Of a stretch of 40,539 nucleotides of DNA, positions 505 through 27,615 are shown piece after piece (position 1 is the first letter of the stretch; each line of letters starts with the position of its first letter). The notes under the pieces were generated by a model, which did no database searches, was not told the origin of the DNA, and worked only from the letters and a program-made list of their open reading frames with translations. Made by a program: the position numbers and the translations under genes. Source of the stretch: Candidatus Kaiserbacteria bacterium (lineage in GTDB: Bacteria > Patescibacteriota > Minisyncoccia > Phycocordibacterales > Phycocordibacteraceae); assembly GCA_016194455.1 (NCBI GenBank), contig JACQBN010000023.1, positions 1 through 40,539 of the forward strand, read 5' to 3'.

Positions 505-507
505 TTC

Positions 508-1029: not shown

Positions 1030-1040
1030 TGTAGCGATTG

Positions 1041-1073
1041 AAACACGCGCGCCCCCTCGGGGCGCGCGTGTTT
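1041..1073 (+). terminator. Strong hairpin terminator after the pilin pair
   Basis: Perfect 15-bp inverted repeat (AAACACGCGCGCCCC / its complement) around a CTC loop, ending in TTT. It lies 11 nt after the pilin stop and 7 nt before the prepilin peptidase ATG. It would separate high pilin expression from low peptidase expression. The 3' U-tract is short, so it may act partly as an mRNA-stabilising 3' hairpin. Confidence 0.8.
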
Positions 1074-1079
1074 GCTATC

Positions 1080-3030: not shown

Positions 3031-3032
3031 AT

Positions 3033-3590: not shown

Positions 3591-4069
3591 AAACTTCACG
3601 CAGGGGATTCACTTTATTGATCGCCGTCATCTTCATGTCGGTGATGCTCTCGCTTGGGCTTGCACTCTCTTCGCTCGGCTACAAGCAGGAGGTGCTCGCC
3701 TCCTCCGCGATAGAGTCGCAGTACGCTTTCTACGCCGCCGACGCCGCGCTTGAGTGTGCGCTCTACGCCGACCAGCAGCAGAATCTCTTCGCCTACGATG
3801 AAAATCTTTCTGCCGCAACCCCGACGATGACCTGCGACGGCTCCATACCAATTTCTGCGACAACCCTCTCCCACACTCTAAGCCAGTGGGTAACGACCTC
3901 TCGCCTCTCCTTAGACTCGGGCAAGCGCTGCGCGGACGTAACGATCTATAAGCCAAACGGAGCGGGAACGAACTACCTCTTCTCGCAGGGCTACGACGTC
4001 GCCTGCAGCGTGGTCGCCTCTCCGGGCGCCGCGCGCTATGTCGCCCGCGGCCTTGAAGCGCAGTACTAG
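3581..4069 (+). CDS. Minor pilin, PilX/GspK-like without Glu5 (block 1)
   Basis: Pseudopilin of 162 aa. Leader MGIKTSRRG precedes FTLLIAVIFMSVML; position +5 is Ile, not Glu. Lack of Glu5 is a known hallmark of GspK-type tip subunits. After the helix it reads ESQYAFYAADAALECALYAD, the usual PilX-like AxxAaEcAly pattern. ATG 3581 overlaps the preceding gene. It is the last gene of block 1 and probably caps the tip complex with the three preceding pseudopilins. Confidence 0.83.
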   Translation: MGIKTSRRGFTLLIAVIFMSVMLSLGLALSSLGYKQEVLASSAIESQYAFYAADAALECALYADQQQNLFAYDENLSAATPTMTCDGSIPISATTLSHTLSQWVTTSRLSLDSGKRCADVTIYKPNGAGTNYLFSQGYDVACSVVASPGAARYVARGLEAQY

Positions 4070-10156: not shown

Positions 10157-10165
10157 TGGTATAAT
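10157..10165 (+). promoter_or_regulatory. Extended -10 promoter TGGTATAAT for the S53 peptidase
   Basis: A TGn-TATAAT extended -10. The ATG of the longer ORF-track version (10164) lies inside this hexamer, so it cannot be in the mRNA. The predicted transcript start is near 10172, leaving a leader of about 20 nt to ATG 10194. Confidence 0.65.
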
Positions 10166-10193
10166 GTCCCTCGTTATCAGCCATACCCCTCTT

Positions 10194-11480
10194 ATGATTA
10201 CTCGCACCCCATTCTTCGCGGCAGCGCTTGCTTTCGTCTTTCTTCTCGGTGGTTCCCTCGCGTATGCCGAGCAGGGTCCCCCCGAAGACGGCGTCTCCGC
10301 GGCCGACCGCGCGAACTACCAGGCGCTCAATATCGAAGGACGGTTCGGCGTGCATTTCAAGGCGCATAAGAGCGTCTGCGCGGAAGCTGGCGCGGGCACC
10401 GCTCGCTGCGCGGCGCGTGTCATTACCGATGCTGCCGGCCGCCCCGCGGCGACCCTGAAGGCCGTGAGCGGCTTCAGTCCTAGCCAGATTCTCGGCGCGT
10501 ACGGTCTTAGCGGCACGGTCTCCGGGCTACCGATCATCGGCATCGTGGACGCCTATGACGACCCGACGATCGTAAGCGATCTCGCGACATACAATGCGAG
10601 CTCCAGCATTCCCGCCCTCCCGACCTGCACCACGAGCACAATCGCCTCTTCGCCCACCGCCTGCTTCCTCAAGGTGAATCAGCTTGGTGCTACGACCTCG
10701 CCTCCGACGGTCGACGCCGGCTGGGCGCTCGAGACCTCGCTTGATGTGGAAATTGCGCACGGGCTCTGCCAGAACTGCAAAGTCCTCTTGGTTGAGGCCA
10801 GCTCCGCAAGCTACAGCGATCTCCTCACTGCGGTCGATAAGGCGGTCGCGCTTGGCGCGAAGATCGTTTCCAATTCTTGGGCTAGCGGGGAGTTCCGCGG
10901 CGAGACGACGTACGACACCCACTTCAGTCATCCAGGCATCGCCTTCCTCTTCGCTTCAGGCGACAGCGGTTATGGCACCGCGTACCCGGCGGCTTCACGC
11001 TACGTGACTTCGGTGGGCGGCACGAGCCTCTTCCTAAATGGGAATGGCTCCTACAACCAAGAGCTCGCCTGGAGCGGGACAGGGAGCGGCTGCAGTTCTT
11101 TTGAAGGGAAACCCTCCTGGCAACACGATGCGAAATGCGCGCGCCGCACGCTCAATGACGTTGCCGCGGTCGCGGACCCCAACACCGGCGCGGCTATCTA
11201 CGACTCAACACCCTTTGGCAGCGCCTCCGGCTGGTTCGAGATCGGCGGTACCTCGCTCGCGACTCCGGTGCTCGCGGCGGTCTACGCGCTTGCGAGCCCT
11301 CTGCCCACCGGCACCCAAGAGAATTCTCTGCCCTACTTCGCGAATCTCTCCACGACGCTCCATGACATCATGAGCGGCGCGAACGGCAGGTGCGGCAGCG
11401 CCTCATATCTCTGCACCGCAGTTACGGGCTACGACGGCCCCACCGGCCTCGGAACGCCGAAAGGCACCGGCGCTTTCTAG
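10194..11480 (+). CDS. Secreted sedolisin-type (S53) serine-carboxyl peptidase
   Basis: Exported protease of about 428 aa. The N-terminus MITRTPFFAAALAFVFLLGG...AYA is a signal peptide. A short prodomain-like region is followed by the catalytic domain: Glu and Asp in WALETSLDVE (about 179 and 183), oxyanion Asp in FASGDSGYG (about 256) and nucleophile Ser in GGTSLATP (about 353). The C-terminal GYDGPTGLGTPKG fits the sedolisin calcium-site loop. The E-x3-D pair rather than a D/H dyad favours S53 over S8. There are several Cys pairs. It lies directly before a secreted wall-binding protein and the pilB operon. A role in host or biopolymer degradation is inferred. Confidence 0.88.
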   Translation: MITRTPFFAAALAFVFLLGGSLAYAEQGPPEDGVSAADRANYQALNIEGRFGVHFKAHKSVCAEAGAGTARCAARVITDAAGRPAATLKAVSGFSPSQILGAYGLSGTVSGLPIIGIVDAYDDPTIVSDLATYNASSSIPALPTCTTSTIASSPTACFLKVNQLGATTSPPTVDAGWALETSLDVEIAHGLCQNCKVLLVEASSASYSDLLTAVDKAVALGAKIVSNSWASGEFRGETTYDTHFSHPGIAFLFASGDSGYGTAYPAASRYVTSVGGTSLFLNGNGSYNQELAWSGTGSGCSSFEGKPSWQHDAKCARRTLNDVAAVADPNTGAAIYDSTPFGSASGWFEIGGTSLATPVLAAVYALASPLPTGTQENSLPYFANLSTTLHDIMSGANGRCGSASYLCTAVTGYDGPTGLGTPKGTGAF

Positions 11481-11507
11481 GAATTACTTGGCTCGTCATT
11501 CTCTACT

Positions 11508-12869
11508 ATGCGCACCGCTCGCCGTGTCTTCCCAGGAATGCTCTTCGTGTGCGCGGCGCTGCTCGTTCCTCTGGTGGCGTTGGCTAGCAGCAATGCGCTG
11601 CGGATCACCGGATACTCGAACATCATGTCCGACGGCACGGGCGACACAGTCGTGCTCTTCCCCACGCCGAAGGCAACTGACAAGTTCGACGCTCCCGTGC
11701 CCGTCTTCTGCGACCACAGCTCCGGCGACACTTACCCTCTCGGCCGAACGGCCGTAATCTGCACCGCGACCGACACATTCGGCAATTCCTCCACCATCCA
11801 CTTCGTCATCAACGTGCGCAATGTGAATAATCCAACCATTACCGTCACCTTCACCGATACGGGCGGCCATGATGTTTTTGCGACCACGACGGTGAACGGC
11901 GCGGACACGGGGCCGGTCCTCTACACGGTCGTCGCACAGGACGGCGCACAAGGGAGAATCTTCAATCAGAACCAGATTTCGTGCATACCGCCTTCAGGCG
12001 CGATCTTCCATCGCGATACGGACGGTACCACCATCACGCCCCTAATTTGCAGCGTCTCCGTATCCGGCCACGCGGTCTTCCAGGAAACCCCCGCCGTCAT
12101 CAGCGTTGAAAATACCAGCGTGCACGGCCTCTCTTCCTGCACGCTCGACGGCCTCACCCTCGATGACGGGCAGTCGACCACGTTCTACTCCTCGAAAATC
12201 GTTACTTCAGTCACCTGCAGTGCCGTTGCGCAGGGCCGCACCTGCACGGACGGGGTGCTCTCTGGCAGTGATTCATATCGCTATTCGTCATGCTCGGGCC
12301 CCGGCTCCCTCATCTCTTCTGGTTCTGGCGGCGGCGGGGGCTGGTTCTTCAATCCCTTCGGCCCGTACCCACATCCGAACGCCGGCAACGGCCTGGGGAA
12401 CGGGAATACTTCGCCCTTCACTAATCTGCTTGGTCTCGGCTCGGGCAATGGGAACACAAGTTGCCTCTCTTATGAGGTGAAGCAGCTGCAGATATTCCTC
12501 AACGCGCACGGCTTCTTAATTGCAAAAACAGGCCCGGGCTCTCCAGGGCAGGAGACCGGCGTCTTCGGCCCGGCGACCGTGGCCGCACTGATCAAATTCC
12601 AGGAGGCGAACGCTAAGTACATCCTTAAACCACTCCACCTCAAAAAGGGCACCGGTAAGCTCGGCCCCGGGACCATAAAGTTCATCAACAAGCTGCTCGG
12701 TATCACTACCGCCGGGACTCCGCTCCCCGCAAGCTGCGCCCCGGGCAACTCTCCCGGTTCTTCCGGTACGCACAAAAATGTGGCGACCACGACGCCTCAG
12801 CCCCCGGCTGCCACACCTCCTGCCCCGAAGAAGAACGGCTGCCCCAAGTGGCTTTGTTTCTGGCGATAG
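11508..12869 (+). CDS. Secreted HYR-domain / peptidoglycan-binding protein
   Basis: Exported protein of 453 aa with signal peptide MRTARRVFPGMLFVCAALLVPLVALA. Residues about 50-105 resemble a HYR (hyalin repeat) domain: a proline-containing strand, YPLGRTAVICTATDTFGN. A beta-rich middle region with paired Cys leads to a Gly/Ser/Asn linker. Residues about 323-398 form a peptidoglycan-binding domain (VKQLQIFLNAHGF, TGVFGPATVAALIKFQ). The tail is Pro/Thr-rich and ends CPKWLCFWR. It could anchor to its own or a host cell wall. It lies 27 nt after the S53 protease gene and is probably co-transcribed with it. Confidence 0.82.
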   Translation: MRTARRVFPGMLFVCAALLVPLVALASSNALRITGYSNIMSDGTGDTVVLFPTPKATDKFDAPVPVFCDHSSGDTYPLGRTAVICTATDTFGNSSTIHFVINVRNVNNPTITVTFTDTGGHDVFATTTVNGADTGPVLYTVVAQDGAQGRIFNQNQISCIPPSGAIFHRDTDGTTITPLICSVSVSGHAVFQETPAVISVENTSVHGLSSCTLDGLTLDDGQSTTFYSSKIVTSVTCSAVAQGRTCTDGVLSGSDSYRYSSCSGPGSLISSGSGGGGGWFFNPFGPYPHPNAGNGLGNGNTSPFTNLLGLGSGNGNTSCLSYEVKQLQIFLNAHGFLIAKTGPGSPGQETGVFGPATVAALIKFQEANAKYILKPLHLKKGTGKLGPGTIKFINKLLGITTAGTPLPASCAPGNSPGSSGTHKNVATTTPQPPAATPPAPKKNGCPKWLCFWR

Positions 12870-12916: not shown

Positions 12917-14131
12917 ATGCCTGGCGACGCTGTTGAGCGCGAGCTTGTGCGTGGCCGCGGATTGTCCGTCATCACACTCGTCGACCATCTGATAGAGGCG
13001 GCACAGGAGAAGCGCGCATCCGACATCCATCTTGACCCGCTCTTCGAGGGCGTGCGGGTTCGTTTCCGTATCGACGGCGTGCTCCAAGATGTGTACCGCC
13101 TGCCGAGGGAGGTGCGCTCGGAGATCGTCTCGCGCATCAAGGTACTCGCGAGTCTGCGCACGGACGAGCACCAGACGGCGCAGGACGGGCGCTTCCGGCA
13201 TTCCTTCGGTGGCAATGCATTCGTGGACATCCGCGTTTCCATCGCGCCCACCTATCACGGCGAGAACGTCGTCTTACGCCTTCTCTCTGATGTCGCGCAG
13301 GAATTTACACTTCAAGCGCTCGGCTTCGGCGAGAGCGATCGACGGAAGATTATCGAAGCGATCAGGAGGCCGAGCGGCATGATCCTCGTCACGGGTCCGA
13401 CCGGGAGCGGGAAGACGACCACCCTCTACACTCTCATCAAGATGCTGAACGCCCCGGATATTTCGGTTATCACGATTGAAGACCCGATTGAGTACGGCGT
13501 CGCGGGTGTTGAGCAGATGCAGGTCAACACGCGCGCCGGCCTCACGTTCGCCACCGGGCTGCGCACCATCCTTCGGCAGGACCCGAACATCATTATGGTC
13601 GGCGAGATCCGCGACGCCGAGACGGCCTCCATCGCCGTCAATACCGCGCTCACCGGGCACCTCCTCCTCTCCACGCTCCACACCAACGACGCGGCAACAA
13701 CGCTCCCGCGCCTCCTCGACCTCAGGGTGGAGTCCTTCCTGGTCGCCTCCACCATCAGCCTCGCGATAGGGCAGCGGCTAGTCAGGAAGCTCTGCCCCGC
13801 CTGCAAGCAGGAGTTCAAGGCGAGCAGGGAGCTCGCGAAGAGCCTCGCCGCAGTGTCGCTCAACAAACCAATCGCCGCCGGAGAGAGGCTCCAGCGCCCG
13901 AAGGGGTGTAAGAAATGTGGCGGCACTGGCTATCACGGCCGTATCTCCATTAATGAAGTGCTCATCGCCGATGCCAAGATCCGCGAGGCGATCCTCGCGC
14001 GCGCGCCTTCCAGCGAACTGAAAAGAATTGCCATCAAAGGCGGCATGACCACCATGCTTGAGGACGGCCTCACCAAAGTGCGCGCAGGAGTCACCAGCGT
14101 GGAGGAGGTGCTCCGCGTCATTCATGAATAA
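12917..14131 (+). CDS. pilB: Type IV pilus assembly ATPase PilB/GspE, short form
   Basis: Cytoplasmic hexameric ATPase (404 aa) that powers pilus assembly. ASDIHLDP and RTDEHQTAQDGRF belong to the N2 domain. The Walker A motif is GPTGSGKTTTL (about 159), the Asp box ITIEDPIEY, the Walker B region RQDPNIIMVGEIRDAET, and the His box STLHTND. A CPAC...CKKCGG zinc site near residues 293-335 is typical of PilB/GspE rather than PilT. It lacks the whole N1 (MshEN-like) domain, so it is about 150 residues shorter than usual PilB. It overlaps pilC by 8 nt. Confidence 0.93.
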   Translation: MPGDAVERELVRGRGLSVITLVDHLIEAAQEKRASDIHLDPLFEGVRVRFRIDGVLQDVYRLPREVRSEIVSRIKVLASLRTDEHQTAQDGRFRHSFGGNAFVDIRVSIAPTYHGENVVLRLLSDVAQEFTLQALGFGESDRRKIIEAIRRPSGMILVTGPTGSGKTTTLYTLIKMLNAPDISVITIEDPIEYGVAGVEQMQVNTRAGLTFATGLRTILRQDPNIIMVGEIRDAETASIAVNTALTGHLLLSTLHTNDAATTLPRLLDLRVESFLVASTISLAIGQRLVRKLCPACKQEFKASRELAKSLAAVSLNKPIAAGERLQRPKGCKKCGGTGYHGRISINEVLIADAKIREAILARAPSSELKRIAIKGGMTTMLEDGLTKVRAGVTSVEEVLRVIHE

Positions 14132-15299
14132 ACCAGATTGGCAGAAGCTGCGGGCGGAAGTCGGGAAACACGCGAAGCGCGCTCTCAAAGAGGCGCGTCG
14201 ATGGAAGAAGCACGCGCACACGCTCTCCGGGCATCTGAAGCAACTCTCCTCCCGGCGCCTTTCCATTAAGGATCAAGCTTTTTTCGCCAAGAGGCTCGCC
14301 TTCCTCATCACGGCAGGCGTACCGATCATGGAGAGCCTCATCATGATCCACGAGCAGGCGCGCTCGCGCGCTTTCTCGCGCGTGATCGATGTCGTCATTG
14401 ATGACGTCGCGAACGGTCAATACCTCTCGAAGAGCCTCGAGCGCTTTCCCGAAATGTTCGGCCAGTTTGCGGTCAATCTCATCAAGGTGGGAGAGACGAG
14501 CGGGACATTGAGCCAGAACCTGGACTATCTCGCCGACGAACTCAAGAAGAAACAGATGCTGCGGCGCAAGATCATCGGCGCCCTCATCTACCCGGCGGTG
14601 ATTACGTTCGCGACGTTAGGCATCACCGCATTCCTGATGGTTTACCTCTTCCCCAAGATCATACCGGTCTTCTTGAGTTTGCGGACGAAGCTGCCGCTCT
14701 CCACCCGCATCGTGATCGCGATCAGCAGCTTCTTGCGGCACTGGGGGCTCCTGCTCATCTTCTTGATCGTCGCCGGGGTCGCGGCGTTTATGGTCGCGCG
14801 CAAGCGAAGCGGACGCCTGCGCACGCTCGTCGACCGTTTCATTCTTAAAGTGCCGGTCTTGGGCACGATGACCCGCTACTACAATCTTGCGAATATCACC
14901 CGTACGCTCGGCCTCCTTCTCAAGACCGGCACCACGCTCTCCGCCGCGCTCGCAATCACCGCCGATACGAGCATGAACATTATCTATCAGCAGCATCTCG
15001 CAGCGCTCGGGCAGTCGGTGATCCGCGGCAAGACGCTTTCGGTCTATCTGGACCAGCAGCGCGAGATCTTCGGCGATATCCTCTGCCAGATGGTCGCGGT
15101 GGGGGAGCGGAGCGGCACGCTCTCGAGTACGCTTATCTATCTCTCGGAGTTCTACGAGCACGAGCTCGATGATTACGCCCGGGGGCTCTCGAGCCTGATT
15201 GAGCCCGCGCTCATGATCTGCATGGGGCTCCTGATCGGCTTCGTCGCCATTTCCATCATCACGCCCATCTATGCCATTACGCAAAACCTCCATCCCTAA
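14124..15299 (+). CDS. pilC: Type IV pilus inner-membrane platform protein PilC/GspF
   Basis: Platform protein of 391 aa that couples PilB to pilin insertion. Two GspF repeats are visible: FFAKRLAFLITAGVPIMESL with VGETSGTLSQNL, and ITRTLGLLLKTGTTLSAAL with VGERSGTLSSTL. Three hydrophobic segments follow the usual order. ATG 14124 overlaps the pilB stop. The length is normal. Its 3' end overlaps the next minor-pilin gene by 29 nt, giving a tight operon. Confidence 0.95.
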   Translation: MNKPDWQKLRAEVGKHAKRALKEARRWKKHAHTLSGHLKQLSSRRLSIKDQAFFAKRLAFLITAGVPIMESLIMIHEQARSRAFSRVIDVVIDDVANGQYLSKSLERFPEMFGQFAVNLIKVGETSGTLSQNLDYLADELKKKQMLRRKIIGALIYPAVITFATLGITAFLMVYLFPKIIPVFLSLRTKLPLSTRIVIAISSFLRHWGLLLIFLIVAGVAAFMVARKRSGRLRTLVDRFILKVPVLGTMTRYYNLANITRTLGLLLKTGTTLSAALAITADTSMNIIYQQHLAALGQSVIRGKTLSVYLDQQREIFGDILCQMVAVGERSGTLSSTLIYLSEFYEHELDDYARGLSSLIEPALMICMGLLIGFVAISIITPIYAITQNLHP

Positions 15300-15735
15300 G
15301 GACGGGTTCACGCTCGTTGAGATCTTGGTCGTCGTCGGTATGCTCGCGATTGTGGCGGGGACCGTCGCCTTCTTCGACCTCGCGAGCTATGAGGGCGAGG
15401 CGTTTCGGGGCGAGCGGACCACACTTGTGACCCTGCTCGAGACCGCGCGCGCCGACGCGCTCAATAATGTCGATGAGTCACAGCACGGAGTCCACGTCGC
15501 GACCGGGCAGTACACGCTTTTTGAAGGCGAGAGCTACAGCGACCCTTCACGCGACACCTCGCGCGACGTGGTGATCGCTGCCTCGTACGTTGTTACGATA
15601 AGCCCCTCTGGCAGCGACATCGTCTTCGCGCAGCTCTCCGCCGAGACCTCGGATGCTACCATCACGCTCACCGACCCGGCGCGCAAGGTAGCAGCAACGA
15701 TTACTATCAACCGCGAGGGCGGCATCAGCTGGTGA
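15271..15735 (+). CDS. Minor pilin, GspH-like (block 2)
   Basis: Pseudopilin of 154 aa, leader MPLRKTSIPKDG then FTLVEILVVVGMLAIVAG with Glu+5. The following region (RTTLVTLLETARADALNN) is the GspH/FimT-type helix. The small beta domain (YTLFEGESYSDPSRD) lacks the Cys-rich loops of the major pilins. It overlaps pilC and is the first of four pseudopilins that mirror the H, J, I, K-like set of block 1. Confidence 0.85.
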   Translation: MPLRKTSIPKDGFTLVEILVVVGMLAIVAGTVAFFDLASYEGEAFRGERTTLVTLLETARADALNNVDESQHGVHVATGQYTLFEGESYSDPSRDTSRDVVIAASYVVTISPSGSDIVFAQLSAETSDATITLTDPARKVAATITINREGGISW

Positions 15736-15736
15736 T

Positions 15737-17254
15737 ATGCGGCGCGGCTTTTCGACGCTTGAAATAATGCTCGCACTCGCGATTTTTTCCATCGTGCTTG
15801 CGGGCGCTATCATCGCGCACTTCAGCGCGCAGTACTGGACCATCGTCTCGCAGACTTCCGGCGAGGCATTTTCGCTCGCGCACCAGCAGATCGAGGATGT
15901 ACGGGCAGAGGCGCGGCACGACTTCGTCTCGGCCGTTTCGACCACCTCCACGTCCTGCTTGGGCGCGCTCTGCTATTCGGTCTCGACCAGCGTGAGCGAT
16001 ATCTCGCCGTGCGCCAAGAACGTTACCTCGAGCGTCTCCTGGCAGGTCGCGCATTATCCGAGCGCGAGCATCTCACTCCCAACGATCTTTACCAGCACCT
16101 CGAGCGCGATTGCACTCGGCGGCGACTGCTCTCTTTCGTATCCGGGCGACTGGACCACCCCCTCTACTCCTGTTGCAACGACCACGGTGAACACGCCCAC
16201 CGGAATAGATGCACTGAACGGCACGATATATAGCAGCGAAAGTAGTTCTCCGTATCTCGAAGCGATCACGCCGTCGGGCGTCCACTATGCATATACGGCT
16301 CCCGACAACACGAAACTGCTGGAACCGGCGTACGCGATTGATGTTGCGCGCGACCTCACTACGGGAAAGGTTTACGCTTACCTCGCGACGGGACCAACCA
16401 ACATCTCCATCGTCGACGTGACAAATCCATCCGCCATGGCTTTTGTGGCTTCAACGACATTTAGCAGCACAAGCGGCACAAATACGTCCGGCAGAAGCAT
16501 CGCTTATTTTAAAGGTAACGTGTATGTCACAACGGACGCTCGTAATAATCGAATAGGCCGCGATCCTGTTTTGTATGTGTTTGACGTAACGAATCCCGCG
16601 TCACCCCAGGAAGTTGGCTCAATCAGTGGCGCGAATCTGAATACGAGCATTTATGGCCTTGCTATACAAAAGAAGTTCGTTGGCGGTGCGCCGACGACTC
16701 TCGCGTTCCTCGCGACGACGCTCGGGACTGGTCAACTGCAAGTATTCGACGTGACAAGTCCACAGAGCATCGGAACGCCACTTGCTAGATGCTCGGTTTC
16801 CGGCGGACTTCCTTCCACGTCGCTCTCATTGCTCGGCAACGACGTCTTTATTGGACTGCAGACGCAAACCACCGATAGCTCGCCAGCGATAGCAGTCTTT
16901 GATGTAAACAATGTGTTGCCGCCGATTTCTTCGTGCGCGCCAATTGCAGCAGCAAGTGCCAAGGCCGTAAGTTGTGACAAGAGCAATTCGCAAAAAACGC
17001 GGTATCCGTACGCGCTGTTCGCCACAGGATCATATCTTTTTGCCCTTACCGACAACACGACCCCGAATCTGGGAGAGTTGCAGGTCTGGCGGACGGATGT
17101 GTCCAATGCCGATGCGAGCAAACGGCTTTCATTCCAGAAAGAATATCCCGATAGCTGTGCAGGACCAGCGATGAGCGCAATCGACTTCGACAGTGACGCC
17201 AATTCGCTGTACATTATGGCGCCGACAGGCGCACAAATATTCACCGGCAACTAA
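15737..17254 (+). CDS. PilV/GspI-like minor pilin fused to a LVIVD-type beta-propeller
   Basis: Unusual pseudopilin of 505 aa. MRRG^FSTLEIMLALAIF is a class III leader with Glu+5; SLAHQQIEDVRAEARHD is PilV/GspI-like. After about residue 150 come repeats of the LVIVD type: VYAYLATGPTNISIVDVTNPS, LYVFDVTNPASPQEVG and LQVFDVTSPQSIG, each about 50-60 residues apart, predicted to form a beta-propeller. Codon use in the propeller part is visibly more AT-rich than in the pilin part, suggesting domain capture. By analogy to the PilY1 propeller, it may display an adhesive or sensory module at the pilus tip (inference). Confidence 0.85.
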   Translation: MRRGFSTLEIMLALAIFSIVLAGAIIAHFSAQYWTIVSQTSGEAFSLAHQQIEDVRAEARHDFVSAVSTTSTSCLGALCYSVSTSVSDISPCAKNVTSSVSWQVAHYPSASISLPTIFTSTSSAIALGGDCSLSYPGDWTTPSTPVATTTVNTPTGIDALNGTIYSSESSSPYLEAITPSGVHYAYTAPDNTKLLEPAYAIDVARDLTTGKVYAYLATGPTNISIVDVTNPSAMAFVASTTFSSTSGTNTSGRSIAYFKGNVYVTTDARNNRIGRDPVLYVFDVTNPASPQEVGSISGANLNTSIYGLAIQKKFVGGAPTTLAFLATTLGTGQLQVFDVTSPQSIGTPLARCSVSGGLPSTSLSLLGNDVFIGLQTQTTDSSPAIAVFDVNNVLPPISSCAPIAAASAKAVSCDKSNSQKTRYPYALFATGSYLFALTDNTTPNLGELQVWRTDVSNADASKRLSFQKEYPDSCAGPAMSAIDFDSDANSLYIMAPTGAQIFTGN

Positions 17255-17255
17255 T

Positions 17256-17729
17256 ATGCGCGGGTTCACCCTCATCGAGACCATCGTCTACATCGGCCTG
17301 CTCGCCGTGCTGATGAGCGCGGCCATCGTCGCGACCTTCCAGTTGATTGATAGCGGCGCGCACAACGAGACCGCGGTCGCCATTCAGGAGGAGGGAACGT
17401 TTCTCGAGCGCAAGATCGGCTGGGCGCTCACCGGTGCGACCAGTGTGAGTGCTCTAAGCAATACGCTCACGATCACCCGGTTGGCGAGCAGCAGCTTCCC
17501 CGATACCGACAATCCGCTCACCATCTCCGTAAACGGCACATCCCTGATCCTTCAGCGCTCGGTCTATACGCCAGTCGCGCTCAATAGCGCGGCCTTTGCC
17601 GTAACGTCCTTTACTGCCACGGTCGACACGTCCCAGATGCCCGCTAAGGTTGATGTCAGCTTTAGCGTCCAGACCATAGGCACGCCCACACAAAGCGCCG
17701 CGTTTACATACCGCAGCTATCTGCGATAA
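17256..17729 (+). CDS. Minor pilin, PilW/GspJ-like (block 2)
   Basis: Pseudopilin of 157 aa starting MRG^FTLIETIVYIGLLAVLM, with Glu+5 and a very short leader. The region after the helix (EEGTFLERKIGWALTGATS) is GspJ/PilW-like. ATG 17256 comes 1 nt after the previous stop; the longer ORF-track version overlaps the upstream gene without need. The beta domain has no cysteines. Confidence 0.83.
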   Translation: MRGFTLIETIVYIGLLAVLMSAAIVATFQLIDSGAHNETAVAIQEEGTFLERKIGWALTGATSVSALSNTLTITRLASSSFPDTDNPLTISVNGTSLILQRSVYTPVALNSAAFAVTSFTATVDTSQMPAKVDVSFSVQTIGTPTQSAAFTYRSYLR

Positions 17730-17736
17730 TAAGGAG
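17725..17736 (+). promoter_or_regulatory. GATAAT followed by AAGGAG directly before ATG 17737
   Basis: GATAAT ends 6 nt before the ATG, and AAGGAG abuts the ATG with no spacer. The SD-like motif is too close to act normally, while the hexamer has the leaderless -10 spacing seen elsewhere, so an internal promoter is possible. Confidence 0.35.
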
Positions 17737-19473
17737 ATGGGCAACGTGCGGCGCAAACGCGAAGGCGGATATATCGCGCTGATGGCGACGATCGTCATCG
17801 GTCTTGTGCTGCTGGTGATGACTGCCGAGGAGGGCTTCGCCGGCATGCACGCCCGCTTCAATGTGCTCGGCACCGAGCGCAAGGAGCAGGCGACGACGCT
17901 CGCCGAGGGGTGCCTGAATCAGGGCATGGCGAAGCTCTTGGTCGATCCCTCTGCCGCGAGCCGTATCGACGCAGTCAATGGCTACGACTCGGGTGATCAA
18001 TCCCGCACCTATTCTTATCAGATCGGGGCCTTGAACAACGCTCTCAACGATGCATCCACTGCATTCAGCACCAGCACCGTGCTCTTCTATCCGACAGGAA
18101 CCGTGCGCGACGAGACGGGCGCCTCCACCAACGCGAATCTGCAAGCCATCGTAGATTTTTCTGGCGTCAACCTGAACTTCTCTAGTGACAAGGGCGTTTT
18201 GGTTGTGCAAGCTGTCGTGGGCGGCAACAATGACGCGAAGGATCAGCCAGAAGACTTCCAGATCCAAGTCGCGGGGCAAGGTCCCGTACCGCTCGTACAA
18301 GGCATCGGAGTCGCCAGCTCGACTGACGACACGGGGGTCGCGACCTCTACCTTCCGCGGCTCGGCCTACGGCGTCGCGGTCTATCTTCCCCCCAACACCG
18401 ATTACCATGTGTACGGGGTGCCGAAGAACGGCTATTTGCCGCACTTTGTGTACGCCAATGGCCAGGACAACTGCACCACCGCGCGCTTCACCGGCGCCGA
18501 CATCGGCAATTACACGATAGGCCATGGCATCAAGGTATGCACGATTCGTTTTGAAGGCCCCCACCAAACGACGCTGACGCTCGCGGCAAACGTCATAAAT
18601 CAATACAAAGGCAAAGCCGCGCCGGCTGATTTTACCTACCTTATTGATGGCGCTGCGGCCGGTCTTGCGCGGACCGTGAAGGTCGCTGACGGCCCGCACA
18701 CCATCTCAATCGGGCTCGCGAACGCGCCAAACGGCAAGTATTCACGGCCGATAGTGCAAAAAACGGGCTTGCCGGCCGTATGGCGCTGCTTTTCAGGCGG
18801 GACCACGACACTCGTGACGATGGTGGGCGCGGGTGACGTCTACAACACTCAAGCGACCGTCAACGCACAAAGCGGAACGGACACCGTCTGCACCCTCACG
18901 CTTGCCGACCCGCAGGTCAGTGCGGCGTGCGCCGACACGGCGGTCATGCTTGCGCAGAATGTCAGCAATGGCGGCGGCAACAACGATATCCCCAACCAAA
19001 AAACAGCCGCAAATCAATTACTGGGACTCTTTAACGACAACGGAAAGAAGAGCGGCATTTTCCCGCGCGTTGCGATCGGCAGTTACGGCGACCCGACGGG
19101 CATCACGACCGCCGGACAGGCGACGAGCACCTACGGCACGCAAGCAACGGAGACGTTTACTTTTGGAACTCCAACGCCCGGTACTCCCGTCTCGGTGACG
19201 GTTTTCGCTATAGCGGAAGGAAACGGGGCAGGACTTCAATTGGTGGAAGAGGACGGAAGCGCAATGCAAGTGGGCAATGCGCAGACGCTTACAGACACAT
19301 ACGCCGCGTATTCATACGAATTCAAAACAAAACCCGATAGTTCGACGTGGAGCGCGAGCGACCTCACCGGTGGGCTCTTTGGGAATTGGCAACGCTACAA
19401 ATTCGGCGTCCGTTCAACGAGCTCGGGCGCTCCGCGGGTGACGCAAGTCTACGTGCAGGTGAACTACCAATAG
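17737..19473 (+). CDS. PilX/GspK-like minor pilin with a large ectodomain
   Basis: Pseudopilin of 578 aa, far above the usual 150-300. The leader MGNVRRKREGG precedes YIALMATIVIGLVLLVM; position +5 is Met, not Glu, matching GspK-type tip subunits and the block 1 equivalent. After TLAEGCLNQGMAKLL the protein carries a roughly 500-residue extracellular part. This includes PEGA-like stretches (PPNTDYHVYGVPKNGY; GLARTVKVADGPHTISIG) and several Cys. It sits 1 nt before the giant adhesin gene, so it probably forms the seat for that adhesin at the tip. Confidence 0.8.
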   Translation: MGNVRRKREGGYIALMATIVIGLVLLVMTAEEGFAGMHARFNVLGTERKEQATTLAEGCLNQGMAKLLVDPSAASRIDAVNGYDSGDQSRTYSYQIGALNNALNDASTAFSTSTVLFYPTGTVRDETGASTNANLQAIVDFSGVNLNFSSDKGVLVVQAVVGGNNDAKDQPEDFQIQVAGQGPVPLVQGIGVASSTDDTGVATSTFRGSAYGVAVYLPPNTDYHVYGVPKNGYLPHFVYANGQDNCTTARFTGADIGNYTIGHGIKVCTIRFEGPHQTTLTLAANVINQYKGKAAPADFTYLIDGAAAGLARTVKVADGPHTISIGLANAPNGKYSRPIVQKTGLPAVWRCFSGGTTTLVTMVGAGDVYNTQATVNAQSGTDTVCTLTLADPQVSAACADTAVMLAQNVSNGGGNNDIPNQKTAANQLLGLFNDNGKKSGIFPRVAIGSYGDPTGITTAGQATSTYGTQATETFTFGTPTPGTPVSVTVFAIAEGNGAGLQLVEEDGSAMQVGNAQTLTDTYAAYSYEFKTKPDSSTWSASDLTGGLFGNWQRYKFGVRSTSSGAPRVTQVYVQVNYQ

Positions 19474-19474
19474 T

Positions 19475-22400
19475 ATGAAATTCCCTCGCACCATCATTGT
19501 TTACTCCGCCATCGCATTTGCACTAGCCTTCTTTGCAGGAGCGCCAAGCGCGTTTGCTAAATCCACTCAAGCCATCCTCACCGTTACCGGCTTGCCCCCC
19601 AGCGCTGTATACCAACAGTTAGGAATTACCGCCGGTACCTCAGGCGGCAGTGGCACCGGTGCAGTCTCTTACAACGCCGGTAACTCGACCGCTTGCTCAA
19701 TTAACTCTTCAACCGGCGCGGTGACCATCACCAGTGGTACCGGTACGTGTTCTATCACTGCAACCAAAGCAGCTGATACGAATTACAATTCTGCGACGAG
19801 CGCTGCGGTTTCAATTACAATCGGCAAAGCAAATCAAGCCACCCTCACCGTTAGCGGCCTACCATCCAGCGCCGTGTACCAGCAGTCGGGGGTCATCGCC
19901 GGCACTTCAGGCGGCAGCGGCACTGGCTCGGTCACCTACAGCGCTAACAGTTCAACCGCCTGTTCGGTGGGATCTTCGAGCGGTACGGTCACCATCACGA
20001 GCGGTAGTGGCACCTGTTCTATCACGGCGACCAAGGCGTCCGACACCAACTACAATTCTGCGACGAGCGTTGCGGTTTCAATTACGGTCAGCTATATAGA
20101 TCTCACAGCCGGAACCATCACCACTTCACCAACGTCCGTAGCCGTCGGTTCCTCGGTTACTCTCACCGCACCTGTCACGAATTCCGGAACGGCATCGACA
20201 GGAGGAAGCTTCACTGACCTCTTTGAGATAAACCAGAACCAAAATCCCGCCGATTTTGCAAGCATCTACGCAACACAGCCATATACTTCGGCAACGCTCG
20301 CTGCGAACGGCGACACCAACACCGCGAGCGCGTCGTACACCTTTGCTTCCAATGGCACCTGGTATGTACGAGCATGCGCTGATATGGGAACGAGCGGCAC
20401 CGGGAGTATCAATGAATGGAACTCAGGCGGCACAGGCGAGCTGAACAACTGCGGCGGATGGACTACATTCACCGTCAACAACCCCGTCCCAACTACGACT
20501 TCAATTTCACCCACCTCAAAAACGGCGGGCAGTTCCGGGTTCACGCTCACGGTCAATGGAACCAATTTTAACTCGTCTTCCGTCGTCAACTTTGCAGGAT
20601 CTCCGAGAGCAACGACGTACGTGAGCGCGACCCAACTCACCGCGAGCATCTCGTCATCCGACATCGCTACAGCTGATACGTTCAATGTTACGGTTACCAA
20701 TCCGAGTCCGGGAGGGGGAACGTCCGGTTCACAGACGTTCACCGTTAACAACCCGGCCCCGACCACGAGCTCAATTTCGCCAACTTCGAAGGTGGCGGGC
20801 AGTTCCGGGTTCACACTCACGGTCAATGGCACCAACTTCAACTCATCTTCCGTCGTCAACTTTACAGGTTCTGCCAGAACAACAACGTACGTGAGCGCGA
20901 CGCAGCTCACTGCCGCCATTTCAAGCTCTGATGCAACGACAGCAGGTACCTTTGCCATCACCGTCACCAACCCGACTCCCGGGGGAGGAACGTCCCTGTC
21001 GCAGACATTCACCGTGACAGCACCCGACCTCATCATCACCGGCACCATTACCCCCACGGGCGCGACGGCCGGAACGAGCGTCACGTTGACCGCGACAATC
21101 ACCAATCAAGGCAATGTCTCGACCGGTGCAAGCTTCAATACGTTGTTCCAGCAGGCGACCGATGCAAACGGCGCCGGAGCGACCAAACTCGGCACTAGCA
21201 CAGGCTCGACTCTTTCATCGACGGCGGGATCAAATACTGAATCAACAACGCTCCCATACACCTTCACGACCGCCGGCACCACCTACGTCCGCGCTTGTGC
21301 CAACACCACAGACAATGTGACCTTCGGTGTCGCTGAGTCCAACTACGGCAACAACTGCGGTGCGTGGACGCCTATAACGGTGAATCCCGGGGCGCTCGAT
21401 CATTTCGGTATCGGCGCCATTAGCGTCCAAGTCGCGGGTACGCCATTCAGTATCACGATCACTGCGCAGGACGCGAACAATAATACCGTTACGAGCTCCG
21501 CGAGCACGGTTGCTCTCACGTCGAATGCCGGCACAGTTTCTCCGGCGACCACGGGTACATTCACTTCCGGAAAATGGACCGGAACGGTAAGTCTGACGCA
21601 AGCGAACAATGCCGCGATCATCACTGCTACCAACGGCAAAATTGGTACATCGAATGCGTTTATAATAAGCGCAAGTCCCGTTTCCACCGTTACCATCTCG
21701 CCCGCGACGCTTTCTGTCGCACTTGGCTCATCTGCACAATTCACCGCGACAGCGAAAGACCAATACGGCAATACGCGTACGGGGGACTCCTTCTCTTGGT
21801 CTGTGAGTTCCGGTGGCGGCTCTGTGAGTTCCTCAGGGCTCTACGCACCCGACGGCCAGGTCGGTACGTTCACCGTGACGGCGACTGACGGAGCGATTTC
21901 CGGCACAGCAACCGTCACCGTCACCGCGCCGGATCTGACTGCGAGCGGGGTAACTCCTACTACCGTCGCCGCTGGCACGGCGCAATTGTATTCAACGACC
22001 GTGTCGAACATCGGCAATGCCTCGACTGGTGCGAACTTCAACACGCTCTTTCAAACAGCTGCAAATGCAAACGGCACTGGTTCCGCAGACATCGGCAGTG
22101 TCTCTTCGACCGCACTTGCCGGAGGCGCGACGAAGACAGTATCATTTTCGTACACGACTACGAAAGCTGGCACATTCTATATTCGCGCCTGCGCCGATAA
22201 AAGTTCAGCGAGCGACACCGGCCTCATCACCGAGAGCAATGAGAACAACAATTGCGGTGTGTGGACCACGATAACGGTGAGTGCCGGAGCCCTCGACCAT
22301 TTCGGGATCGGAGCAATTGGGACTCAATATGTGAATATACCGTTTCCGATTTCGGTTACTGCACAAGATGCATACAACAACACGATTTTGAATTATGCGG

Positions 22401-23530
22401 GCACGCTCAACTATACGACAAGCGTATGCAACAAGTGTATCTCGCCGACCTCATCGGGATCGTTTACCAACGGTGTGCGTACCGAGACCGTCACCATTTC
22501 TCAAGCAAGTGCCGGCGCCACCATCACTGCGACCGAAAGCGGCGGCGGCAACAACCATCCGGCCAGCACATCAAATAACTTTCCGGTCTTGGCTGTGCTT
22601 TTCCCAACGGGGACAGGCAACTATCAGCAGTGGGTGACGAATACCGACGGTGCGGTGAATGCCGTCGCGGGCAATGATGGCGACACTACCTATGTGTATC
22701 CTCAAAGTCTGTACTCGGTCATCGATCAGTTGAGCCTATCGGGAACAAACGGCAAGGATGTGAGTGGTGCGATTGCCGCCTCGCAGACAGAATTCCAGCG
22801 GATATGGCAAGTTGATAAGTCCATTCTGGCCGGCGCATCGCCGAAACAGCGCACTCTCGTGCTCGTCACGCCGCGCGGTAACCTCTCCGGTAATTCGAAC
22901 TCGCAGGCAATTGTTGACGCGGCGACCTGCGTGAAAACGCTCGACCCCGGCGCATGCTCGCGCGCTGGCATAACGCTCGACTCATCAAATGCGACGACTA
23001 CTATATACGTCATGTCTTGGGGTGCTACCGGCGGACAGAGTTTCAACGATTCGCTTTCGAGCGGACCAGGATATTCTTTTTACGCTCCGAATTCCGACGA
23101 TGTCATTTCGGTATTCAATCAAATCGGACAGGCAATATGCCCCGCGACCGTGGCTTCGGATTCGGGGGCGGCGGGAGGGCCGACCGGCGCCTCACTCCAA
23201 GTTTTCACCCACGTCGTCAACAACGATGGCGGGAAATTGAGCGCGTCCAATTTCCCCTTTACCGTGAATAGCGGAGCACCCACTCCGGGAGCGGAGCCGC
23301 CCACCGGAGTGACTCTCGCCTGGAGCGATCTAACAGCGCCGTATGCGGTTGCGCAATCGCAGGTTGCCGGATACGGCGCGCCGGACATCGGCCCGGGCTG
23401 CACTTCAAGCGACGCGGGTATGCTTATCCTGGGCGAGACGCGCATGTGCGTTCTCACCAACGACGATACCGCCGTGGCGCCAACTATCACGGTAGGCAAC
23501 GGTACTTGGCAGGAAGTCCCCACGTATTAA
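19475..23530 (+). CDS. Giant multidomain surface adhesin linked to the pilus operon
   Basis: Secreted protein of 1351 aa with signal peptide MKFPRTIIVYSAIAFALAFFAGAPSAFA. In order: two MBG-like repeats (about 30-205), CARDB-like domain (NSGTASTGGSF), two nearly identical 90-aa IPT/TIG repeats (about 337-515), CARDB-like, two Big-like domains (HFGIGAISVQVAGTPFSI; TVTISPATLSVALGSSAQFTA), CARDB-like, another Big-like domain, then a region resembling the back half of a vWA domain (about 1090-1223). The tail ends MLILGETRMCVLTNDD. There is no LPXTG or C-terminal transmembrane helix, so retention may depend on the minor pilins encoded immediately upstream. A host-attachment role is inferred. Confidence 0.85.
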   Translation: MKFPRTIIVYSAIAFALAFFAGAPSAFAKSTQAILTVTGLPPSAVYQQLGITAGTSGGSGTGAVSYNAGNSTACSINSSTGAVTITSGTGTCSITATKAADTNYNSATSAAVSITIGKANQATLTVSGLPSSAVYQQSGVIAGTSGGSGTGSVTYSANSSTACSVGSSSGTVTITSGSGTCSITATKASDTNYNSATSVAVSITVSYIDLTAGTITTSPTSVAVGSSVTLTAPVTNSGTASTGGSFTDLFEINQNQNPADFASIYATQPYTSATLAANGDTNTASASYTFASNGTWYVRACADMGTSGTGSINEWNSGGTGELNNCGGWTTFTVNNPVPTTTSISPTSKTAGSSGFTLTVNGTNFNSSSVVNFAGSPRATTYVSATQLTASISSSDIATADTFNVTVTNPSPGGGTSGSQTFTVNNPAPTTSSISPTSKVAGSSGFTLTVNGTNFNSSSVVNFTGSARTTTYVSATQLTAAISSSDATTAGTFAITVTNPTPGGGTSLSQTFTVTAPDLIITGTITPTGATAGTSVTLTATITNQGNVSTGASFNTLFQQATDANGAGATKLGTSTGSTLSSTAGSNTESTTLPYTFTTAGTTYVRACANTTDNVTFGVAESNYGNNCGAWTPITVNPGALDHFGIGAISVQVAGTPFSITITAQDANNNTVTSSASTVALTSNAGTVSPATTGTFTSGKWTGTVSLTQANNAAIITATNGKIGTSNAFIISASPVSTVTISPATLSVALGSSAQFTATAKDQYGNTRTGDSFSWSVSSGGGSVSSSGLYAPDGQVGTFTVTATDGAISGTATVTVTAPDLTASGVTPTTVAAGTAQLYSTTVSNIGNASTGANFNTLFQTAANANGTGSADIGSVSSTALAGGATKTVSFSYTTTKAGTFYIRACADKSSASDTGLITESNENNNCGVWTTITVSAGALDHFGIGAIGTQYVNIPFPISVTAQDAYNNTILNYAGTLNYTTSVCNKCISPTSSGSFTNGVRTETVTISQASAGATITATESGGGNNHPASTSNNFPVLAVLFPTGTGNYQQWVTNTDGAVNAVAGNDGDTTYVYPQSLYSVIDQLSLSGTNGKDVSGAIAASQTEFQRIWQVDKSILAGASPKQRTLVLVTPRGNLSGNSNSQAIVDAATCVKTLDPGACSRAGITLDSSNATTTIYVMSWGATGGQSFNDSLSSGPGYSFYAPNSDDVISVFNQIGQAICPATVASDSGAAGGPTGASLQVFTHVVNNDGGKLSASNFPFTVNSGAPTPGAEPPTGVTLAWSDLTAPYAVAQSQVAGYGAPDIGPGCTSSDAGMLILGETRMCVLTNDDTAVAPTITVGNGTWQEVPTY
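19560..20094 (+). repeat. Two MBG-like tandem repeats within the adhesin
   Basis: Two copies of a unit of about 88 aa (GLPPSAVYQQ / GLPSSAVYQQ ... GTCSITATKA.DTNYNSATS). Each has one Cys pair position (ACS...GTCS). The copies are close enough to permit recombination. Confidence 0.75.
20482..21017 (+). repeat. Two IPT/TIG tandem repeats within the adhesin
   Basis: Two 90-aa units sharing SGFTLTVNGTNFNSSSVVNF and TYVSATQLTA, about 270 nt each. These immunoglobulin-like domains are typical of surface adhesins. Confidence 0.8.
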
Positions 23531-23548
23531 CCCCGGGCGTGGAGGAAA

Positions 23549-23583
23549 GCACAAGCGCCCCGCCGAGGGCGGGGCGCTTGTGC
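23549..23583. terminator. Perfect 16-bp hairpin between convergent genes
   Basis: GCACAAGCGCCCCGCC and its exact complement around a GAG loop. It follows the adhesin stop on the plus strand. On the minus strand it follows the small peptide gene and is then followed by TTTCC. It probably serves both. Confidence 0.75.
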
Positions 23584-23602
23584 TGCGAAAACGAATGTCG
23601 CT

Positions 23603-23913: not shown

Positions 23914-25395
23914 ATGAAAAAATACATTGTAGGTATCGGTATCGCTGTTGCAGCACTCGGCCTCGGGGCTACCGTGGCCTTCGCTACGGTTAATCCTGTT
24001 ACCGCAGCGACCGGGGGCGAGGCCATATCTATCGATACGACATCCGCGTCTGGCGGCAGTAATACCTTTACCACCCCCATTACCGGCCCAGTTATTACGG
24101 AAGCTTCCGTGGGCGATATTGGGGCCGGTACTTATGTGTTGACTCTTCCCGCCGGCTGGGTGTTTGATACCGGCGCGACGGTAACAATCGGCCTGAATGG
24201 GGGAACCGATATCGATGCCAGCTCTACTGCGACTGTTGGCAGCAATACGCTCACCTTCGGGGTGCTGACACCCTCTAGTGGGGCCTCGGCCGTGCTTACC
24301 TTCAACGGTATTGCGGTGAAGCCGACGGGGACCGCCACCAGCACCGGTAATATGCTCATCTCTTCCGATGATGGCGGTAGCATCGTGGGAGTAGATGGCA
24401 GCACCAACTTCGGCACGTTCGGCACCGTGCCGGGCGCGCTTACAAGCATCACCGTCTCTCCCGACGGAAACACCATTACTGCAGACCAAACGCAGCTATT
24501 CGCCGCCGAAGGCTTTGACCAGTTCGCGAACAGCAGAGGCGACGTGACCGGGGGCACCACCTTTACCGTGAGCTCCGGCAGCATGTTCGGGTCCTTCACC
24601 GGCGCAACCTTCCAGCCGGCTTCGACGAGCCCATCAATCACGGTGCACGGAGCGCATGCCGACACGGCCGGCGATGACGCGGCAATCACGGTAACGCCCG
24701 GCGTGGCGACAACGGTTGCCATTACCACGCAGCCGGCAAACACGAACGGCACGGTAGACAATCCGCTCCAGCAACAGCCGATAATTCATGTGACCGACCA
24801 ATTCAACAATGACGTTGCCGATGGCACCGCGGTTACCGCCTCGGTGGTGAGCGGCACGGGCCCCGCGCTCCGCAATACCGCAACGACGACCTTGGGCGCG
24901 GGCGTCGCGACCTTTACCACTCTCGGCACGACCTTGGGCGCGGGCGTCGCGACCTTTACCACTCTCGGCTACAACAAAGCCGCGGAACCCTTTACGCTCA
25001 AGTTTTCCTCAAACAGCAATGATAGCGACACCTCAGATACGGTGTCAGCCCTTATTTACGGAGTGCCGCACCATCTGGCATACGACGTCCAGCCGTCAAA
25101 CGTGAGGGTGAACACAGCCATCACACCCGCGGTCAAGGTGAGCATCCGCGACCAGTACGACAATACGCGGACAGGGCAGAACGGCACCGGAGTCTCCGTC
25201 TACGCCGTTACGCCGCAAGGGAAAAAGATCTCAGTTTCAGGCGGCGGAAGCACTACAATCTCCGGCGTCGCCACCTTCTCGTCGATCATGCTTAATCAGC
25301 CCGGCGGCTACGTGCTTGGCGCACACACGTTTGGACTCTCTGACATTCTGTCCGTACCGTTCAACGTTGCTCCCGCAACGAAGGGTAAGAAATAA
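23914..25395 (+). CDS. Secreted surface protein with Big/invasin-like domains
   Basis: Exported protein of 493 aa. The signal peptide is MKKYIVGIGIAVAALGLGATVAFA. An N-terminal beta domain (TYVLTLPAGWVFDTGATVTIG) resembles the stalk-like domains of S-layer or cohesin-bearing proteins. Big_1/Big_2-like modules follow: SITVSPDGNTITADQTQLFAAEGFDQFAN, VAITTQPANTNG...IIHVTDQFNND and HLAYDVQPSNVRV...VSIRDQYDNT. It ends in a basic tail ATKGKK without an anchor. It contains an exact 42-nt tandem duplication. It could be an S-layer-like or adhesive protein. Confidence 0.75.
   Translation: MKKYIVGIGIAVAALGLGATVAFATVNPVTAATGGEAISIDTTSASGGSNTFTTPITGPVITEASVGDIGAGTYVLTLPAGWVFDTGATVTIGLNGGTDIDASSTATVGSNTLTFGVLTPSSGASAVLTFNGIAVKPTGTATSTGNMLISSDDGGSIVGVDGSTNFGTFGTVPGALTSITVSPDGNTITADQTQLFAAEGFDQFANSRGDVTGGTTFTVSSGSMFGSFTGATFQPASTSPSITVHGAHADTAGDDAAITVTPGVATTVAITTQPANTNGTVDNPLQQQPIIHVTDQFNNDVADGTAVTASVVSGTGPALRNTATTTLGAGVATFTTLGTTLGAGVATFTTLGYNKAAEPFTLKFSSNSNDSDTSDTVSALIYGVPHHLAYDVQPSNVRVNTAITPAVKVSIRDQYDNTRTGQNGTGVSVYAVTPQGKKISVSGGGSTTISGVATFSSIMLNQPGGYVLGAHTFGLSDILSVPFNVAPATKGKK
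24886..24969 (+). repeat. Exact 42-bp tandem duplication inside the surface protein gene
   Basis: Two identical 42-nt units (24886-24927 and 24928-24969), in frame, each encoding TTLGAGVATFTTLG. Perfect identity including silent positions implies a very recent duplication or an assembly artefact. Confidence 0.9.
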
Positions 25396-25422: not shown

Positions 25423-26016
25423 TTGCACAATATCCTGTTTGCCTCTACGATAGAGGCCATTATGACTCTCTGGCCTCCTGGGGGTGTATTATCCAGCCTT
25501 CGGCGCTCTATACGCGGCCGCGCCTGCCAGGAAGCAGGCTTCACGCTGATTGAAATCCTCATCGTGATCGGCATTATCGCGGTCTTGGCGGGTATCGTCA
25601 TCGTCGCGATCAACCCCGCGAAGCAGTTCGCCCAGGCACGCAACACCCAGCGTCAGGCGAACGTCAACACGATATTGAACGCCATCGGCCAGCGTCTCTC
25701 GGACAATAAGGGGACGTTCGAAGGAACATTTGCCGTGGGGAGTCCTTCAGTATCCTATACATGTGGGCCAATACCTTCCGCGACGACAACCATCACTACG
25801 ACGATGGCCGCAGATACAACCTCGCCGACAGGTAGTATGGGATGCCTGGTCCCGACATATATAGCCACGATGCCGTTTGACCCTGCCGCAAGTTCAACGA
25901 GTAACACAGCCTATTCCGTTTTAGCAGATTCCACCGGCAGAATAACCGTTTGTTCGGGAATGGCCGCGACCGAAACATCGATCCCGGGGGCCGCAGCAAT
26001 TTGCGTCAAGCGCTAA
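25423..26016 (+). CDS. Type IV pilin with a long leader
   Basis: Pilin with the site QEAG^FTLIEILIVIGIIAVLAG (Glu+5) followed by AINPAKQFAQARNTQRQANVNTILNAI, the typical pilin helix. The beta domain has four Cys and ends AAAICVKR. From TTG 25423 the leader is about 38 residues, unusually long. From ATG 25462 it is 25 residues and the protein is 184 aa. The start is unresolved: a perfect SD supports the TTG, while ATG is the commoner codon. It follows the surface protein gene closely, and a different N-terminal helix shows it is not a copy of the block 1 pilins. Confidence 0.85.
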   Translation: MHNILFASTIEAIMTLWPPGGVLSSLRRSIRGRACQEAGFTLIEILIVIGIIAVLAGIVIVAINPAKQFAQARNTQRQANVNTILNAIGQRLSDNKGTFEGTFAVGSPSVSYTCGPIPSATTTITTTMAADTTSPTGSMGCLVPTYIATMPFDPAASSTSNTAYSVLADSTGRITVCSGMAATETSIPGAAAICVKR

Positions 26017-27586: not shown

Positions 27587-27603
27587 ACGTCAACGGCGCG
27601 TGC

Positions 27604-27609
27604 TAAACT
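27604..27609 (+). promoter_or_regulatory. -10-like TAAACT for the nitroreductase-like gene
   Basis: TAAACT ends 6 nt before ATG 27616, the same spacing as at other leaderless-type starts. Confidence 0.45.
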
Positions 27610-27615
27610 CCTAGC

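Follow-up and report, generated by a model that had tools for sequence, protein, structure and literature searches.

Gene organization of the operon

The window (the whole 40,539-nt stretch of DNA that was analyzed, from an ultrasmall, Parcubacteria-type bacterium of Candidatus Kaiserbacteria) carries an operon on the plus strand at 12917-23530. The operon consists of pilB, pilC, four genes encoding H-, I-, J-, and K-like prepilins, and a gene encoding a 1351-aa secreted protein. The initial annotation had described these genes as an unbroken block, and every one of them was found where it had been placed, with gaps of -29 to +7 nt (-8, -29, 1, 1, 7, and 1 nt from pilB to the adhesin gene). 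The pilB gene (12917-14131) encodes a PilB/GspE-type assembly ATPase in a short form of 404 aa (Pfam T2SSE, 3.2e-119), and its orthologs adjoin pilC in loci L045, L047, and L048 of related genomes and in many others. It is followed by a gene (14124-15299) for a PilC/GspF platform protein (Pfam T2SSF, 5.9e-48), the third PilC of the genome. The pairing of an assembly ATPase with a platform protein is as expected of a type IV filament system. Class III prepilin signals and the matching peptidase are also present: the genome contains 12 N_methyl matches, and a peptidase A24 is encoded at 1038-1847.

The H-like minor prepilin (15271-15735) carries an N_methyl signal and reaches 21.2 bits against the Pfam GspH model, whose cut-off is 21. 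The I-like prepilin (15737-17254) combines a prepilin motif with a propeller. The J-like prepilin (17256-17729) was assigned from an N_methyl match over the cut-off and from its position, and the K-like pilin (17737-19473), which has no family match, from its prepilin helix and its position. The H, I, J, and K names denote position and N-terminus only, because no NCBIfam Gsp equivalog cut-off was reached (GspE 491 versus 630, GspF 301 versus 424, and GspH 27 versus 80 bits).

The adhesin gene (19475-23530; CARDB 7e-21, CoaZ repeats 1e-59) has a coupled start, as the K stop codon and the adhesin start codon are joined in the junction TAGTATG. Readthrough of the K stop was rejected because the frame is off by one. 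Direct reading of the sequence places a signal peptide at 19475-19558. The shaft that follows (19559-22563) contains two 267-nt and two 270-nt tandem repeats, three CARDB domains, and invasin/Big-like domains. A perfect 17-bp hairpin lies directly 3' of the adhesin gene (23548-23584) and possibly marks the end of the operon; it has no T run on the plus strand, and a weak terminator-like match was found on the minus strand only. Further downstream, the gene at 25423-26016 on the plus strand (N_methyl 1.5e-6, prepilin motif near 25531) is the counterpart of the pilin that follows K in L045, L047, and L048. On this basis, it probably encodes the major pilin of the operon's system. The gene lies outside the span reported in the initial annotation, which had also missed a second pilin cluster at 10-4069.

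Several neighboring features were also recorded. The region directly 5' of pilB (10164-12869) encodes a secreted subtilase-like protein and an HYR and peptidoglycan-binding protein. A perfect 42-bp tandem duplication (24886-24969) is present inside the gene at 23914-25395, which encodes a 493-aa secreted protein. Consecutive genes at 26126-29699 encode an adenylate-enzyme-like protein (no Pfam match), a nitroreductase, and a ThiF/E1-like protein, and could form a small modification pathway.

Filament systems in the genome

The genome encodes three PilC proteins and several PilB-type ATPases, and a PilT-type ATPase is located on another contig. These gene counts indicate that the operon is a third, accessory filament system. 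Among 58 members of the genus, most genomes have one or two PilC, and clear orthologs of the operon PilC occur in few. The second pilin cluster of the window, at 10-4069, is ordinary. It encodes two major-type pilins, a prepilin peptidase, and four H/J/I/K-type pilins that are small and lack large modules. The ATPase and platform protein of this cluster probably lie on another contig.

The I pilin carries a seven-bladed propeller

An AlphaFold model of the I pilin, made with 50 aligned sequences, has a pLDDT of 87.3 and a pTM of 0.86. The pilin module (15737-16114), which carries a GFSTLE prepilin motif, folds in this model as a helix (residues 5-61) with a small four-strand sheet. The propeller follows at residues 138-505 (16148-17251; Pfam LVIVD 5.5e-7). 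Residues 143-504 superimpose on the seven-bladed propeller of E. coli YncE with a Z of 31 and an rmsd of 2.1-2.2 Å over ~284 residues. Thus, the propeller claimed in the initial annotation is borne out, and we are confident from the model that I is a pilin module fused to a YncE-like seven-bladed propeller. In other words, the model gives I the make-up of a modular minor pilin, that is, a prepilin module joined to a domain that is not specific to T4P. A seven-bladed propeller on a minor pilin is a trait of PilX2 as well. RCC1 repeats were absent from I in the Pfam search, which found LVIVD instead.

A profile of four I proteins found matches in 113 of the 397 genomes of the order. In 40 inspected loci, the matches were mostly arranged as PilB, PilC, H, I (~430-665 aa), J, and K, and then a GFTLIE major pilin. 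Full-length matches to I also occur in other classes of the phylum. A wider search returned 228 of 379 genomes, a count that gives no prevalence because many of the matches are isolated pilin N-termini or other propeller proteins.

Conservation of the operon in relatives

A PilC-alignment scan of named genomes provided 80 loci, which were selected by PilC similarity and hence give no prevalence. They represent Kaiser-, Nomura-, Zambryski-, Vogel-, Yanofsky-, Doudna-, Wolfe-, Giovannoni-, and other -bacteria, and 64 of the 80 contain the propeller pilin. Among these 64, PilB was found in 57, an adjacent H in 55, and an adjacent J in 51. The gene order H, I (propeller), J, K, and major pilin is recurrent across Paceibacteria-type genomes. 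Because the same order is found in dozens of genomes, the operon is not a chance assembly. These surveys also indicate that the conserved part of the system is the propeller on I, not the adhesin.

Two observations concern the surroundings of these loci. In three members of the genus, L045 (5165-6929), L047 (9112-10864), and L048 (8806-10555), a response regulator and a histidine kinase follow the operon's major pilin; they are not found at that place in the window. In L220, a gene near the operon (15916-21104) encodes a large surface protein that combines a peptidoglycan-binding domain with bacterial Ig-like domains.

The K pilin and its giant counterparts

The K pilin has a prepilin helix without Glu5 (it reads GGYIALM) and is last in the H-I-J-K order, as expected of a GspK/PilX-type pilin. 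Glu5 is likewise absent in every recognized K of the relatives. The prepilin helix and stalk modules (17737-18906) match K of L152, L160, and L203 by BLASTP. The ectodomain of K is large, as had been claimed, with its size now corrected from roughly 500 to ~450 residues. The original reading of the locus as a pilus-tip operon with two oversized minor pilins is supported.

A search with whole K found matches that were N-terminal only, in 78 relatives, and conservation was then traced via PilC and the I pilin. The recognized K of relatives have a median length of 139 aa, and large K with a VWA domain are in the minority. In nine relatives, the K position is occupied by a VWA-bearing pilin of up to 1497 aa or by its cut-off start. 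For example, K measures 1497 aa in L152 (Ca. Kaiserbacteria nzgw460), 1342 aa in L160 (Nomurabacteria fen_1328), 897 aa in L157 (Parcubacteria C7867-001), 826 aa in L222, and 419 aa in L169. A giant K consists of a pilin, stalk modules, a VWA domain into which sandwiches are inserted, and a C-terminal module whose end lies near W-x-E-V-P. The stalk modules are prealbumin-like (SpaA_2) in L152 and L160, and the stalk of the window K matches the prealbumin-like modules of relatives. In L153, L161, L163, and L203, the assembly breaks off within the gene for the giant K. Because several assemblies break in this way, large VWA pilins may be under-counted in MAGs.

A VWA domain divided between K and the adhesin

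A VWA profile was built from eight VWA-bearing K of relatives, and the two window proteins were compared with it by hhalign. K residues 398-453 (18928-19095) align with profile columns 1-61 at a score of 53.9 (hmmsearch 3.7e-9). After this segment, the window K skips to a later sandwich part and then stops. The C-terminal beta-sandwich (19123-19470) matches the repeated sandwiches of giant K in L152, L160, and L203, and lacks the first strand. Where is the rest of the domain? The C-terminus of the adhesin appears to hold it, in three consecutive pieces. Adhesin residues 1042-1076 (22598-22702) correspond to the first strand of the K sandwich (BLASTP identity of 63.6% over 33 aa to L160 and 41% to L089/L125). 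Residues 1079-1195 (22709-23059) align with VWA columns 89-212 at a score of 34.5, compared with 23.4 for the best of 300 shuffles and 14.5 for the best other adhesin window. Residues 1200-1350 (23072-23524) match the C-terminal module of giant K (hmmsearch 1.2e-23; 36% over 201 aa to L144, E 9e-22) and end in WQEVPT. In genome G394, this module lies at a contig start with the major pilin directly after it, the position that the end of K should occupy.

The VWA part of the adhesin was found by profile alignment (hhalign) only; HMMs built from three and from 8 sequences did not detect it. BLASTP of the adhesin against one fused K returned weak pieces only, and MAFFT alignments of K or the adhesin with fragments misplaced the VWA rows. 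An AlphaFold model of this part has too low a confidence (mean pLDDT 50.4) to count either way, although its helices and strands follow the expected helix-helix-strand-helix-strand order. The VWA parts of K (columns 1-61) and of the adhesin (columns 89-212) are complementary and non-overlapping, and neither chain holds a complete VWA fold.

These alignments identify the adhesin C-terminus as the missing half of the relatives' giant K pilin. In other words, by sequence comparison the adhesin is not an independent partner of the pilins; the K and adhesin halves are homologous to one ancestral tip pilin. Relative to giant K, the secreted half has gained a signal peptide and an Ig-like/CARDB shaft. 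In the PilC tree, the window belongs to a supported set of seven (98/86) together with the VWA-K loci L157, L152, and L161, and this set is nested in a set of 20 holding six VWA-K loci. This grouping is what a split of an originally fused K would give, although the large K may have been lost or gained in parallel. The split form was seen in a single genome, a MAG of 83% completeness.

Model for the filament tip

We propose, with a probability of about 0.6, that the operon serves to make the tip of a third, dedicated type IV filament, and that the secreted adhesin is a severed part of this tip docked on K. The homology of the two halves is supported by the profile alignments, and from it we infer the docking. 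H-I-J-K would prime the filament and sit at its tip, in keeping with the H-I-J-K rule of known pili (PMC10191384). The adhesin would be made coupled to K and exported by Sec. It would then dock on K, with its VWA half completing the incomplete VWA domain of K. Likewise, adhesin residues 1042-1076, a sandwich-type strand missing from K, would complete the sandwich of K. The propeller and the adhesin shaft would then bind a surface, most likely that of a host cell. A host attachment role of the operon is plausible by analogy because PilX2 of TM7x, a propeller-bearing minor pilin, is needed for normal host binding (PMC12206443).

A specific form of this docking, to which we give a little less than even odds, is split-domain complementation. 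The VWA domain and the beta-sandwich, each divided between K and a separately exported protein, would reassemble outside the cell and mount an exchangeable adhesive shaft. If true, this would fasten an adhesin without a covalent bond or a classical binding domain. The VWA domain itself is probably a structural joint, not a metal-dependent adhesion site, because both MIDAS halves are degenerate in sequence. The DxSxS/DxTxS motif of MIDAS, present as DRT/DRS in the eight fused K, is lost in the window K, which has LAQNVS and no MIDAS aspartate. The beta4 motif matching MIDAS is also lost in the adhesin.

Alternative explanations

The initial annotation had suggested that the adhesin is held by the tip as PilY1 is. 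A separate tip adhesin of this kind would be a partner in its own right and attach to the H-I-J-K complex through a dedicated binding domain. It would agree with the signal peptide, the coupled gene, and the lack of a wall anchor (neither an LPxTG motif nor a C-terminal hydrophobic stretch was found, as had been claimed), and PilY1 caps the HIJK complex in known pili (PMC10191384). However, the genome has no match to PilY1 (PF05567), the adhesin lacks both PF05567 and a propeller, and its C-terminus is homologous to K itself. Furthermore, among 37 relative loci with I, J, and a following pilin, none has a large secreted protein encoded separately between J and that pilin, and the interval holds at most one ORF in 34 of the 37. 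Retention of the pilins without the adhesin had been named beforehand as evidence against the tip-held adhesin, and this is the state of all 37 loci. The idea nevertheless survives because the adhesin C-terminus is the missing half of the relatives' giant K. The adhesin is probably held by the tip, and a separate PilY1-like partner is unlikely.

The severed-tip model must also be weighed against decay of the locus. A rearrangement may have broken a giant K whose halves no longer cooperate, leaving the secreted C-half to drift or to serve elsewhere on the surface. The loss of MIDAS on both sides is compatible with decay too, as are the strong divergence of the adhesin VWA part and the occurrence of the split in one genome only. 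However, neither of the two long reading frames is interrupted, the C-terminal module is well preserved, and the downstream half has gained its own signal peptide as well as a start codon coupled to the K stop at a distance of 1 nt. Decay is improbable in light of these features.

We likewise doubt that the operon encodes a pseudopilus for DNA uptake or secretion (Com or T2SS-like), in which the propeller and the K ectodomain would hold cargo and not a host. In favor of it, the best-scoring models for PilB and PilC are GspE and GspF, though below cut-off, and the ATPase is short. Against this stand the operon's own major pilin, the adhesion-type VWA, CARDB, and Ig-like domains, and the precedent of a propeller pilin in host binding (PMC12206443). 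An assembly artefact, in which pieces of an intact giant K and another surface protein were misjoined in the contig, is very unlikely: giant K does break other assemblies (the four that end inside K, and G394, where the C-half is on another contig), but the two junctions share no long repeat, GC3 is even across K and the adhesin and in the adhesin resembles that of the neighboring genes, the adhesin start is coupled to the K stop, and the tandem repeats of the adhesin are only 75-76% identical.

Comparison with known systems

Modular pilins are a known and widespread kind (PMC8179133). One close likeness is to T4P-2/PilX2 of Nanosynbacter lyticus TM7x, another patescibacterium, which also has a second dedicated filament with a seven-bladed propeller on a minor pilin (PMC12206443). 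However, RCC1 repeats make up the propeller of PilX2, for which no PilD signal is predicted, and no K-adhesin split has been described for T4P-2 (PMC12206443). Pilin I, unlike PilX2, is LVIVD-type and YncE-like, has a clear prepilin motif, and occupies the I position in an operon with PilB, PilC, H, J, and K. The operon may bear on how ultrasmall episymbionts recognize and hold their hosts; among propeller-bearing pilins, the single one we found that had been tested belongs to Saccharibacteria. The arrangement of H, I-propeller, J, K, and major pilin provides a sequence signature by which a candidate attachment filament can be recognized in many Parcubacteria-type lineages and farther afield in the phylum, which makes it testable in cultivable members.

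As in the modular pilins PilB and PilC of S. sanguinis, an adhesion module is grafted on a minor pilin, and the VWA-bearing minor pilin PilB likewise has its VWA domain on a tip pilin (PMC8179133). The S. sanguinis VWA domain is in one polypeptide with an intact, working MIDAS (PMC8179133), whereas here the domain is divided between two proteins and MIDAS is lost. Type IVa PilC/PilY1 resembles the adhesin in being secreted, in not being a pilin, and in its presumed place at the tip, on the H-I-J-K complex (PMC10191384). PilY1 proteins can contain VWA as well as propeller modules (PMC8179133). Modules that can be joined in one secreted PilY1 adhesin are here spread over minor pilins, with the propeller on I and the VWA domain on K and the adhesin, in a genome without PF05567. 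The T2SS GspH-GspI-GspJ-GspK tip complex has four minor pilins in the same order and a K without Glu5, but the operon differs from it in its own major pilin, its large adhesive ectodomains, and its scores below the Gsp equivalog cut-offs.

In type IVb CofB-CofJ of ETEC, a large tip minor pilin is the adapter on which a secreted protein docks (PMC8179133). CofJ is not described as a piece of CofB (PMC8179133), whereas the secreted protein here appears to derive from the pilin itself. In the literature searched, we found no paper on LVIVD and a pilin together, no LVIVD-type propeller pilin operon of Paceibacteria-type lineages, and no division of a tip pilin into a pilin and a secreted adhesin. 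Modular pilins and minor pilins bearing a propeller or a VWA domain are already known; what is new is the operon type and the K/adhesin split. If the split VWA domain rejoins, it would be a new way of mounting an adhesin on a pilus.
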